From Sinorhizobium psoraleae (lineage in GTDB: Bacteria; Pseudomonadota; Alphaproteobacteria; Rhizobiales; Rhizobiaceae): a stretch of DNA of 64,000 nt. The stretch lies in assembly GCF_013283645.1 (NCBI RefSeq), contig NZ_JABEKV010000004.1, positions 124,001-188,000 of the forward strand, in the 5' to 3' direction. A program made the position numbers and the translations under genes. Positions 24,594-44,849 of the stretch are shown here, one piece after another (the first letter of the stretch is position 1; every line of letters begins with the position of its first letter). The notes below the pieces were generated by a model that saw only the letters and a program-made list of their open reading frames with translations, was not told where the DNA came from and did not search any database.

Positions 24594-24678
24594 GCGGTCG
24601 TGGCGGAATTGGTAGACGCGCAGCGTTGAGGTCGCTGTGGGGCAACCCGTGGAAGTTCGAGTCTTCTCGACCGCACCA
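24594..24678 (+). tRNA. tRNA-Leu (anticodon GAG)
   Basis: This is an 85-nt class II tRNA. The acceptor stem GCGGTCG (24594-24600) pairs with CGACCGC (24668-24674). The D arm is GCGGAATTGGTAGACGC, and the anticodon stem CAGCG/CGCTG encloses loop TTGAGGT with GAG. A long variable arm (TGGGGCAACCCGT) and the T loop TTCGAGT are present. Discriminator A and a genome-encoded CCA end it at 24678. It reads CUC/CUU leucine codons. There is no sign of an integrated element at its 3-prime end. Confidence 0.97.
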
Positions 24679-42301: not shown

Positions 42302-42910
42302 CTATTGCGTCTTCACGCTGCCGACTGCCACGGCGCGGCCGTCCTGCAATTTCACCCAGCGTCCGGCGTTCTCCGAAGACTGCCTCTTCAGAAAGGTATA
42401 TTCGGTCTCCGACCAGCGGAGCACCTTGCTGCGCATGTTGTCGAGGATGAAGTCGCCGCGGTCGGTGCGGACGGTCAGAACCGCATGGCCGTCGCCGTTT
42501 GGCTGCAGCACGACGGTGATCAAGAGATCGGCGGGAGAGAAACCGCTCTCGATCAGCTTGCGGCGCTTAAGGAGCACATAGTCCTCGCAGTCGCCGACTG
42601 CGTCCGGATAGGACCATTCTTCTTCGACGCCATGGATTTCCATATCCGTCATCGGGGTCACGGCCTGATTGACCTCGTAATTGACCTCGAGAATTTTCTG
42701 CCATCCTTCGCGGGTCAGACCCATCGGGCCGCTATTGGTTTCATTGGCGGTGCATTCGGATGGATTGCTCTTGCAAAATTCGTAGTGACCGATCGGCGGG
42801 TTGGTGGTGCCGCCCACCGTGATGTTCGCCGGAAGGGCGAGGGCTGCCTCGGTCAGGAACCCGACGAAAAGGGCCGCGACGGCTATCGTCTTGGTGATGG
42901 CGTTGTGCAT
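42302..42910 (-). CDS. transglutaminase-like cysteine protease (BTLCP / peptidase C93, LapG family)
   Basis: This 202-residue protein starts at the ATG at 42910. The signal peptide ends near ALALPAN. The catalytic triad is visible: Cys108 in AVGDCEDYVLLKRR, His142 in NGDGHAVLTVRT and Asp157 in FILDNMR. The family includes LapG, which cleaves surface adhesins under c-di-GMP control, but most rhizobial members are uncharacterised. Three phased direct repeats lie 77-132 bp upstream. A PilZ protein is encoded about 600 bp away on the same strand. Confidence 0.92.
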   Translation of the reverse strand: MHNAITKTIAVAALFVGFLTEAALALPANITVGGTTNPPIGHYEFCKSNPSECTANETNSGPMGLTREGWQKILEVNYEVNQAVTPMTDMEIHGVEEEWSYPDAVGDCEDYVLLKRRKLIESGFSPADLLITVVLQPNGDGHAVLTVRTDRGDFILDNMRSKVLRWSETEYTFLKRQSSENAGRWVKLQDGRAVAVGSVKTQ

Positions 42911-42986
42911 TGTTGTCTCCCCGTTACGGTTCGACAATGGCACAGAGTTTTTTATCTGCGGCGAAGACGCGAGGTAAAAACAAGTA

Positions 42987-43042
42987 CAAATAAGAATAGT
43001 ATGCGCGGCAAATAAGAATAAATATCGGCTCAAATAAGAATA
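42987..43042. repeat. three 12-bp direct repeats phased at 22 bp
   Basis: CAAATAAGAATA occurs identically at 42987-42998, 43009-43020 and 43031-43042, so the repeats start exactly 22 bp apart, two helical turns. The spacers differ, so only the 12-bp unit is conserved. On the minus strand, reading toward the LapG-type gene, the motif is TATTCTTATTTG. The array lies 77-132 bp upstream of that start codon, where an activator would bind. The surrounding DNA is markedly AT-rich. The regulator is unknown. Confidence 0.85.
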
Positions 43043-43527
43043 GATTTTGATTCAAATTTTATTGAAATTTCCCGCGCTCGAGAACGCAAGGGAGTACTGG
43101 AGTTTTTCTATCGGCCGGAAAAACAAGGGTTATTTCGAACGGAGCGCTCGGCAAAGCCAAAATGCAGGCGCCATGTATTCAACCTTGTCGCCGGTCCCGA
43201 TGTCGAGCATTCCGGTCGTCAAGACTGCGGTTAATGCGCAATTCTGCGCTGGCAGGGGCGAGGAGCGAGAGACTTTTCCGAAAAAATATTCGAGCAGCGC
43301 GCGCGAATGTCATACGGCATGACGCGCGCCCGTTGGCGCTCTGCGGAGCGCTCAGCGCCCACGCGATGGTGCCTGTCGTTGCAAACGACGGCCACAAGCG
43401 CGTGCACGACGGCGAACGACCGTCATTGGTGCGGCGGGGTGCCTATGCGCGAGATGTCGGTGGGATGTCCGTTATCGAGAATGTTCTTGGATGCTGCTGG
43501 CAGCCCGGCGGGCGCCGCCGGTATCAC
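43043..43527. other. region without a supported gene between the LapG-type and PilZ genes
   Basis: About 485 bp. Short frames on both strands show no family signature. It holds a hairpin GCGCTC-TGCG-GAGCGC at 43336-43351, which has an alternative pairing of GGCGCT (43335-43340) with AGCGCC (43354-43359). It has an AT-rich start, 43043-43075, and a GC-rich remainder. I see no clear promoter or terminator. Confidence 0.45.
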
Positions 43528-44136
43528 TCAAAGGAATTCGGCCAGCGCTTCGCGAGACTGGATGCCGGAGAATTCGATCGCCACGCCTTCCTGGAAGTGG
43601 CGGACGATCTTGCCTTTCATGGTACCGAGTTTGACGGGCGTGCCTATCGCGGGCCGGTTCTCGATGTCGATCGCGGCACCCGAGAGGGAGAGATCGATGA
43701 GGCGGCAGGCGTATTTTTCGCCGTTGCCGAGCGTGAGTTCCGTCAGCACCTTGCGCGGGACGAGACGGTCGTGGCGCCGGTCTTCCGGCAAGCCGAGTTC
43801 ATGCTTGTTTGCGATCCAGGTAAGTTGCGCTGCCAGTTTCTCGCGCTTTCGCTCCGTCGCATTAAGCTGGATGACAAAAGCATGTTCCGCGAGCCGCGAC
43901 ACGGTGCCCTCGAGACGCCCGACGTGCTCGATATAGGCTATGATCCGCTCGCCGGCGCGCGGGCGGGCGGGCGAGGAAAAGAGCACGTCGCCCGGCGACA
44001 TGTCGACGGCGGTGCAATCAAATTCATCGCGATTGGCAAGCATCAGCCGCCCCGAAAGATTTACCGAAACGCGCTGAAAGGCACTTTCCTGGTGCGGCTT
44101 CGGGCCGTTGTTTTGTGCGTGCTGAAACGAGAACAT
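43528..44136 (-). CDS. protein with two PilZ (c-di-GMP-binding) domains
   Basis: This 202-residue protein starts MFSFQHAQNNGPKPHQ. The first PilZ-like domain (about residues 18-105) has a weak site (QRVSV, then DMSPGD). The second (about 117-200) has a canonical c-di-GMP site: RRHDR at 120-124 and DLSLSGA at 148-154. It has no membrane segment or output domain, so it probably works through protein contacts. The target is unknown; motility or surface polysaccharide control is usual in the family. Confidence 0.88.
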   Translation of the reverse strand: MFSFQHAQNNGPKPHQESAFQRVSVNLSGRLMLANRDEFDCTAVDMSPGDVLFSSPARPRAGERIIAYIEHVGRLEGTVSRLAEHAFVIQLNATERKREKLAAQLTWIANKHELGLPEDRRHDRLVPRKVLTELTLGNGEKYACRLIDLSLSGAAIDIENRPAIGTPVKLGTMKGKIVRHFQEGVAIEFSGIQSREALAEFL

Positions 44137-44237
44137 GGTCACTCTGCGATCGAAGCATCCTTGCTTGCAAAAATATAAGTGGTCTCGGTTAATAGAAGGT
44201 TCGCTCAATGCTTGGCTGGACCATCCGCGCCTCCCGA

Positions 44238-44849
44238 TCAGCTTTCCCGTCCGCCTTCGAAGATGCGCAGATGCTGAACCCTGCGGCCGACTTTTCCATG
44301 TCGGCTCGTCGTGTCCGCAGCATGGGGTGTTTCCGCCAAATCCTCAAGACCATGATGCCCGCTGTCGAGGATCCGCAGGCCGTGCGCGACAATGCATTCA
44401 AGCGATATCATGTGGAGCCATGACGGACGCGACAACGGTGCCAACGAACCAAGGATACGGTCGCTGTGGCCCTGCGGCGAGCCGAGTGGCGTGAGCAGCA
44501 ATTCGGTGTCCAGTCGCTCACCGCCTGCCGTCACGCCGCAGGCGGAAAGCACGACCGGAGAGCATTGCATCATCACCTGATCGGCAATCCGAACGGTTTC
44601 ACTCGCATCGCCGGCAGGCCAGAGCGCGGCGAACGGCTGTCTTCGCAGCTCTCGACCGAAAAGAGCGCAGACATGAGTCCCGGCGAGCCGGAAGCGGATG
44701 TCACCGCTTGCCTGCCGTTCAAGGATGAAGAGGTTCGGCAGCAGCGAACAGATTTCTTGAGGTTCGATCTCGTCGCGGCGAGGGAGATCCCGTTCGCCCC
44801 GCAACCTGTTCCAGTATCGCAATAGCTCTATCGTTGTTTTGCTGCGCAT
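44238..44849 (-). CDS. PAS-domain protein (PAS_5 type)
   Basis: This 203-residue protein starts MRSKTTIELLRYWNRLRGER. The blocks LPRRDEIEPQEICSLLPNLF and RFRLAGTHVCALFGRELRRQ are those of the alphaproteobacterial PAS_5 group, ligand-binding PAS proteins with no output domain. The C-terminal 60 residues look disordered. It lies upstream of the PilZ gene on the same strand, about 100 bp apart, so a common signalling role is possible but not shown. Confidence 0.82.
   Translation of the reverse strand: MRSKTTIELLRYWNRLRGERDLPRRDEIEPQEICSLLPNLFILERQASGDIRFRLAGTHVCALFGRELRRQPFAALWPAGDASETVRIADQVMMQCSPVVLSACGVTAGGERLDTELLLTPLGSPQGHSDRILGSLAPLSRPSWLHMISLECIVAHGLRILDSGHHGLEDLAETPHAADTTSRHGKVGRRVQHLRIFEGGRES

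Follow-up and report, generated by a model that had tools for sequence, protein, structure and literature searches.

The DNA analyzed here, a 64,000-nucleotide stretch of Sinorhizobium psoraleae (referred to as the window), holds a tandem repeat array in a 617-bp intergenic gap. The genes on either side, encoding a PilZ domain protein and a Peptidase_C93 protein, are on the minus strand. The relevant features, in order of position, are as follows.

42302 to 42910, minus strand: Peptidase_C93 (BTLCP) gene, 202 aa, HvyA-like (Pfam PF06035, E 1.7e-69).
42911 to 42950, minus strand: 5' leader with ACGGGGAGACA (Shine-Dalgarno region) and CATTGTC.
42951 to 42956, minus strand: putative -10 element GATAAA, a tentative assignment.
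42974 to 42979, minus strand: putative -35 element TTTTAC, predicted from sequence, 17 bp from the -10 element.
42977 to 42987, minus strand: proximal 11-mer GTACTTGTTTT, which abuts or overlaps the -35 element and is strongly conserved in the genus.
42988 to 43064, minus strand: seven tandem 11-mers, CAATAAAATTT GAATCAAAATC TATTCTTATTT GAGCCGATATT TATTCTTATTT GCCGCGCATAC TATTCTTATTT.
43528 to 44142, minus strand: upstream PilZ domain gene (Pfam PF07238, E 5.5e-16).

The C93 protein scored 233.2 bits against PF06035 (family cut-off 27) and exhibits an apparent signal peptide and, by eye, the Cys-His-Asp residues of the family (GDCED, GHAV, LDN). A reading made earlier from the sequence alone had called it a LapG-type protease; membership in the Peptidase_C93 family stands, but the LapG designation does not, the protein reaching 20.3 bits against the NCBIfam LapG model NF045674, below the cut-off of 320. 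Matches to the C93 gene were found in 106 of 111 family genomes, and at 75–100% identity in 31 of 33 genomes of the genus. By position, the gene is the ortholog of S. meliloti SMc00998 and S. fredii NGR_c12490, both HvyA relatives, the assignment to SMc00998 being based on position and not on sequence compared under that name. Genome G303, which we take to be NGR234 or a near relative, carries three C93 genes on one 3,925,702-bp contig (at 1.288, 2.039, and 3.832 Mb), while a second contig has a partial match; the order of the three fits NGR_c12490, c19800, and c36180 with ours first, and our gene therefore corresponds to NGR_c12490. The PilZ-C93 gene order is the same in the annotation of S. 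meliloti Ak57, where PilZ and PAS genes (43528–44849 in the window) hold the same place upstream of C93; by eye, PilZ/PAS genes apparently also adjoin the C93 gene of G336 (L107), a genome of another family.

Upstream regions were compared for 30 of the 31 close genus matches, anchored at the start codon with one best C93 match per genome, and for the best 28 loci outside the genus, one per genus, the less similar matches (55–65% identity) being candidate orthologs. The putative -35 element begins a conserved core, TTTTTACCTCG, and a TTTTAC-like element was present in all 30 genus regions and 20 of the 28 others, while GATAAAA, GATCAAA, or AATAAAA occurred in 28/30 and 14/28, ACGGGGA in 30/30 and 19/28, and CATTGTC in 22/30 and 10/28, respectively (each counted anywhere in 400 bp). 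Within the genus, the C93 leader (42911–42950, minus strand) is strongly conserved, reading CTCTGTGCCATTGTCGAACC..ACGGGGAGACA. It may matter for translational control, since Caulobacter hvyA is under translational control that is unexplained in the passages of PMC4241560 dealing with it.

Exact copies of CAAATAAGAATA lie on the plus strand at 42987–42998, 43009–43020, and 43031–43042. The three identical 12-bp repeats with an exact period of 22 bp are thus as the sequence-only reading described them, and 76 nt separate the ATG at 42910 (minus strand) from the closest repeat, in agreement with the distance it gave. Among 2000 dinucleotide shuffles of 42911–43110, an exact 12-mer was doubled in three and tripled in none. 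When up to two mismatches were allowed, the window yielded four matches to CAAATAAGAATA (shuffle mean 1.19), namely the triplet and a site at 24677 that is accounted for by chance. The genome-wide search for the spaced pair that the same reading had proposed was run on the 7.43-Mb genome and returned a single locus for 12-mer, N10, 12-mer, which is this array; with the spacer relaxed to 9–11, the pair was found in one of 297 family genomes, again this one. A three-unit pattern allowing up to three mismatches matched this array and one other site in the genome, and the reversed control pattern matched one. The triplet is therefore real and local. The expectation that it would be conserved in relatives held for the array but not for the exact 12-mer triplet, which was present in 2 of 30 genus loci (our own, L003, and L004), with two exact copies in six further loci. 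A coding origin of the repeats was rejected, because neither 11 nor 22 is divisible by 3; a minus-strand open reading frame with a TTG start at 43033 spans them, but the conserved start is ATG 42910. No RNA family in Rfam matched within 42850–43560 at E up to 1.

The 22-bp period, previously taken as the basic unit, is a harmonic (2 × 11) of a conserved 11-bp unit with the gene-strand consensus TANTCNAATTT, as both the lag and the anchor-distance tests described below indicate, and the triplet of this strain reflects identity of every second 11-bp unit. The array extends further upstream than the triplet, to 43064. Its spacers had been considered unrelated; both are in register with the repeats, GAGCCGATATT scoring as a degenerate unit and GCCGCGCATAC falling below the cut-off. 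A chain of five units scored 40.5 at 43064 as compared to 4.1 for the next best position in the window. A unit matrix was built from 253 sites in 42 promoters, with 14 near-duplicate Sinorhizobium promoters excluded and L046 and L061 lacking an anchor. Its consensus closely resembles TANTCNAATTT; position 5 is C in 72% of sites and G in 0%, and TC at positions 4–5 is conserved in these score-selected sites; the letter percentages are partly selected because the sites were picked by score. The unit is passably legible on the opposite strand because AAATTT is palindromic, and its orientation is not absolute, since L107 (G336), L148, and L144, all from other families, score higher on that strand.

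AT tracts (AATTT) recur every 11 bp within the array, and no other 100-bp interval of the window is as rich in AT as 42978–43077, at 70% (reached by 1 of 2557 scanned windows). The same interval contains a TA count of 20 over both strands, or 10 steps (reached by 2 of 2557), as well as four AAATA and three AAATAA, each of these counts being likewise reached by 2 of 2557. In the 550 bp upstream of the S. meliloti Ak57 gene, the 50-bp blocks holding the array and the core are 74% and 68% AT, and the other nine range from 26 to 50%.

Across the genus, variants of the repeat occupy -132, -110, and -88, with an additional copy at -99 in several species, and most upstream columns, when split into 11-mers, are variants of one unit. 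Self-match at lags 11 and 22 exceeded that of shuffled sequence in most of 11 genus loci (1000 shuffles each). At lag 11, L018 gave 0.578 against 0.355 and L022 gave 0.470 against 0.298, values reached by 0 of 1000 shuffles in either case. The observed value of our own sequence (L003) was reached by 20 of 1000 shuffles at lag 11 and by none at lag 22; L031 was weak (65 at lag 22) and L032 unremarkable (110 at lag 11, 200 at lag 22). Over the 30 genus loci, the distance from the anchor TAAAATTT to the core TTTGT was 6.0 units in 18 of the 26 that could be measured, 5.0 units in 7, and 10.0 units in one (L016, probably a misplaced anchor). With this distance at 6.0 or 5.0 units, the difference between lineages is one whole unit; it does not represent independent events, since many of the loci come from close relatives.

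The same periodicity was observed outside the genus. Among the 28 other genera, lag 11 gave a mean z of 2.8, with z above 2 in 18, and lag 22 gave a mean z of 2.1, with z above 2 in 14, while each remaining lag from 5 to 23 exceeded 2 in zero to three loci; this lag test relies on the first placement of the core. Phase relative to the core promoter was assessed with a unit matrix derived from Sinorhizobium only and with the unit adjoining the core omitted, the core itself being located independently, from its sequence, from a -10-like element, and from how far it lies from the Shine-Dalgarno region. Of 27 promoters, 21 had array and core in phase; the proportion was 20 of 23 at a core score of at least 5.5 and 16 of 17 at a score of at least 6.5, as compared to a chance expectation of about 1 in 11. 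Out of phase were L041, L049, L054, L058, L059, and L062, some with doubtful cores, and L046 had no anchor. An earlier version of the test gave 19/28, and 18/21 at a core score of at least 6.5, under a rule favoring TTT that may couple core and units and with some cores misplaced. The number of units is thus variable, five or six in the genus and higher in certain other genera, but the array stays in helical register with the core promoter, and the proposal of a helically phased tandem array in the protease promoter is supported. This is very likely a functional, conserved operator array.

Recurrence elsewhere was examined with a sequence-only model of five units (R1) built from 31 windows hand-picked from 63 (29 loci, all of the same family), so that matches at C93 within this family are partly by construction. 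In the S. psoraleae genome, the sole site below E 0.2 was this array (E 3.7e-4, its sequence being included in the model); the next sites, at E 1.08 and 2.38, are leads at most. Among 40 relatives, 22 of 24 genus genomes matched at E ≤0.5, all at the C93 locus, and the two without an R1 match (G314 and G322) are also without a close C93 match. Only three genus matches lay away from C93, one at a DUF5330 gene (E 0.47) and two, weak and in two congeners (E 0.03 and 0.10), between fliF and a gene of LuxR type, apparently visN. Across 150 genomes of the order, with stricter filters and E ≤0.002, 17 distinct places were found in 15 genomes, and none in the other 135, at least three of which belong to the same family as S. 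psoraleae. Six places are upstream of C93 (L068, L141, L145, L146, L147, and L148), with C93 homology beginning only about 0.9 kb further on at a seventh (L153); four precede a DUF5330-like gene, as judged by tblastn with the S. psoraleae DUF5330 protein (L082, L143, L144, and L150); and six are elsewhere (L089 at a Tad-domain protein, L140 upstream of a YbjQ_1 gene, L142, L149, L151, and L154). When L068 and L146 are set aside as promoters of the same family within the model, the remaining 15 include four (or five) at C93 and four at DUF5330. In G338, two arrays (L089 and L108) lie upstream of Tad-domain proteins, and no ROS_MUCR gene was found in that genome.

The second recurrent gene family, DUF5330, was also represented in S. 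psoraleae itself. The E 1.08 site is located between a PAS/HisKA kinase gene and the divergent DUF5330 gene, approximately 1.7 kb from the best mucR-family gene. Best NCBIfam matches of this kinase were DivJ and PdhS, far under cut-off, and it is called DivJ-like from the family match and its place near mucR rather than from a name. A two-unit core, TAA(A/G)ATT(T/C)GAnnC(A/G)AA, preceded DUF5330 in 25 of 30 genus loci (among the matches listed) and started exactly 40 bp before CTTG(T/C)GATTC in 22 of the 23 loci with both, the exception, L114, having a second match at 40 bp. Elsewhere, the only occurrence of this core within the 64-kb window was the one in the array, and 13/30 genus and 2/28 other C93 promoters contained it. 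The element can be followed at L109:2120–2200 (G000:C12, about 351.6–351.7 kb) and through L110–L139, at a fixed 40 bp from CTTGTGATTC and upstream of DUF5330, and in other families longer arrays precede the DUF5330-like genes (L082, L143, L144, and L150). A weak, AT-rich, array-like site (E 2.4; L072:1490–1545, G000:C2, 68677–68711) separates a 303-aa LapG-like C93 paralog from a divergent gene for a large VCBS/cadherin-type adhesin, an arrangement reminiscent of LapA/LapG.

With regard to the reader of the units, the sequence-only reading matched the motif to no characterized regulator. Candidates do exist: AAATAA contains the Ros/MucR core described in passages of PMC5693944, where Ml1 and Ml2 bind AAATAA and the AAATA site is also recognized by Brucella MucR. 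Ts spaced 10–11 bp apart are known for MucR1, whose ChIP-seq motifs show that periodicity, and Ros87 requires an internal G together with a pair of Ts at 11-bp spacing, according to parts of PMC8857273. The orthologous promoter is moreover repressed by MucR. In the sections of Ardissone et al. 2014 (PMC4241560) concerned, Caulobacter hvyA, which belongs to the C93 family, has a promoter that MucR1/2 bind and repress and that CtrA activates; the SMc00998 promoter reaches 314% in mucR::Tn and 568% in Caulobacter delta-mucR1/2; and CtrA ChIP association is given for NGR_c12490 in S. fredii. That literature bears on MucR repression of the orthologous promoter and not on binding at this array. The visN promoter is an EMSA-verified MucR1 target in S. 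fredii. Four PF05443 (mucR-family) genes were found in the S. psoraleae genome (G000), and the MucR family was detected in 15 of 17 genomes tested, among them every one of the 12 tested genomes whose array lies at C93 or DUF5330; in G326 and G340, both among these 12, the array is weak.

With about equal weight for and against, Ros/MucR silencing is regarded as the best explanation of the array, and we infer both MucR as the protein reading the units and the place of CtrA. In the proposed mechanism, tandem 11-bp units (TANTCNAATTT, gene strand) extending from about -154 to the -35 element of an HvyA-type C93 promoter would constitute a phased operator, in which units may be gained, lost, or diverge while their phase relative to the core promoter is retained. 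Ros/MucR oligomers on the AT-rich units, with their AAATA core and T-A step, would most likely silence the C93 promoter. Relief would come from an activator, for which phosphorylated CtrA is plausible by analogy with Caulobacter hvyA, and the protease would then be made at one cell-cycle stage.

Several results count against MucR. The four mucR-family loci of the genome, intended as positive controls, have no array, and no MucR gene was detected in G338 and G426, in which array matches occur at other genes. MucR of S. meliloti reportedly does not depend on a consensus (PMC10572780), yet the units have one (C 72%, G 0% at position 5). S. fredii MucR1 has more than 1000 ChIP peaks, whereas the array is nearly unique in the genome, and phase-locking to the -35 element is not obviously needed by a silencer. 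The class A flexible MucR pattern TTxxxGxxxTxxxxxxxxxxTT had no strict match and six loose matches in 200 bp, a number reached by 46 of 1277 windows. A separate comparison of the Ros box with two units, for which the center of the box was placed where we presume it to lie, was not significant, 245 of 2000 shuffles reaching its score.

A different reader was also considered. The sequence-only reading had suspected tandem binding by an OmpR-type regulator; the suspicion of a tandem-binding regulator stands, and the OmpR type remains a live candidate, to which we assign a minority share of our belief. The units would here be direct-repeat half-sites for a head-to-tail OmpR/PhoB-type response regulator contacting RNA polymerase beside the poor -35 element (TTTTAC). 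This regulator could be CtrA, if TCAA half-sites are tolerated, or else another protein, and repression by MucR would be separate or overlapping. The 11-bp tandem period, the phase-locking to the core in 21 of 27 promoters, the weak core elements, and a conserved non-AT base are all consistent with such a regulator. So is TCAA-N7-TCAA, which 52 of 59 promoters contain, as compared to 17.8 on average in shuffles (up to one mismatch, both strands, last 200 bp). Direct repeats of 11 bp have been published for FeuP (candidate TTCA-N7-TTCA) and CenR (TGA-N8-TGA), and CtrA has been reported at two array loci, divJ in S. meliloti, where it binds according to passages of Pini et al. 2015 (PMC4433202), and NGR_c12490 in S. 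fredii (likewise from parts of PMC4241560). Against such a regulator, the FeuP, CenR, and ChvI motifs described so far appear to be a poor fit, and the CtrA box TTAA-N7-TTAA (up to one mismatch) occurred in 4 of 59 promoters, below the shuffle mean of 14.6, and is absent from the 350 bp of this promoter; over the 59 promoters (L003–L032, L035–L062, and L063) it is depleted, as though the array shunned strong CtrA boxes. FeuP-type TTCA-N7-TTCA was mildly enriched at up to one mismatch (29/59 against a mean of 18.1 and a maximum of 26), the three copies in this window reading TTCT. CenR sites are mostly GC-containing TGAC-like pairs or AGTCAC-N6-GTGACT, dissimilar by eye; when the unit is set beside the published table, also by eye, NGA-N8-NGA proves inherent in the unit but the C after it is absent. 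ChvI GCC-N8-GCC misfits the unit, its proxy GCCG-N7-GCCG occurring in 8/59 promoters against a mean of 4.1 and a maximum of 10, and the higher opposite-strand scores at several loci of other families (L107, L148, and L144) also speak against this reading. The MucR and OmpR/PhoB readings are compatible, since both proteins act on the Caulobacter promoter.

Two explanations dispense with a dedicated reader. Phased AT tracts may bend the DNA or serve as an extended UP element, in keeping with AATTT every 11 bp, near the helical repeat, and with the position of the array immediately upstream of the -35 element. This appears improbable in view of the conserved TC at positions 4–5 and the absence of G at position 5 (in selected sites), and of a run of at least five units, which exceeds what a UP element needs. 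Least credible is that the 22-bp triplet is a functionless lineage accident, arising from recent local duplication or chance. Restriction of the exact triplet to 2 of 30 congeners is what such an accident would give; against it stand the absence of a tripled 12-mer from 2000 shuffles, the retention of array position and phase across genera, and similar elements at a second gene family (DUF5330). Chance or isolated duplication was accordingly rejected for the array; an accident may account only for the three copies being exactly alike.

These observations suggest, tentatively and with somewhat less than even confidence, that a phase-locked, sequence-specific 11-bp operator defines a small Hyphomicrobiales cell-cycle/envelope regulon, with HvyA-like C93 and DUF5330 as its conserved members and either MucR bound in register or an OmpR-type protein as its reader. 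MucR would, in such a regulon, act in a sequence-specific, in-register mode that has been unsuspected so far. MucR is described as an H-NS-like silencer without a consensus, and the array provides a concrete substrate on which reading of sequence and phase can be tested; the alternative to MucR reading the sequence is a second regulator on the same DNA. The shared operator sequence further ties the hvyA-type protease to the locus of DUF5330 and the DivJ-like kinase, as a testable regulon. No published description of the array was found in the passages of open-licence full texts that were searched.

Among known systems, Caulobacter PhvyA and S. meliloti PSMc00998 share with the array promoter the gene family and, by position, the same ortholog, and no array is mentioned for them in the relevant passages of PMC4241560. 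With the S. fredii MucR1 ChIP-seq class (Ros/MucR, H-NS-like), the array has in common its AT-richness, T-A steps, AAATA cores, and T periodicity of 10–11 bp. It differs from that class in a consensus with a conserved C, exact 11-bp spacing, at least five copies, and phase relative to the core promoter, and the strict published pattern is missing. With OmpR/PhoB operators (PHO box, CtrA box, FeuP, and CenR) it shares the 11-bp period, the tandem arrangement, and a position beside a poor -35 element. Its half-site, TC-N-A-A-T-T-T, is unlike the published motifs, as counted for CtrA and FeuP and as judged mostly by eye for CenR and ChvI, and whereas those operators have two copies, the array reported here has more.
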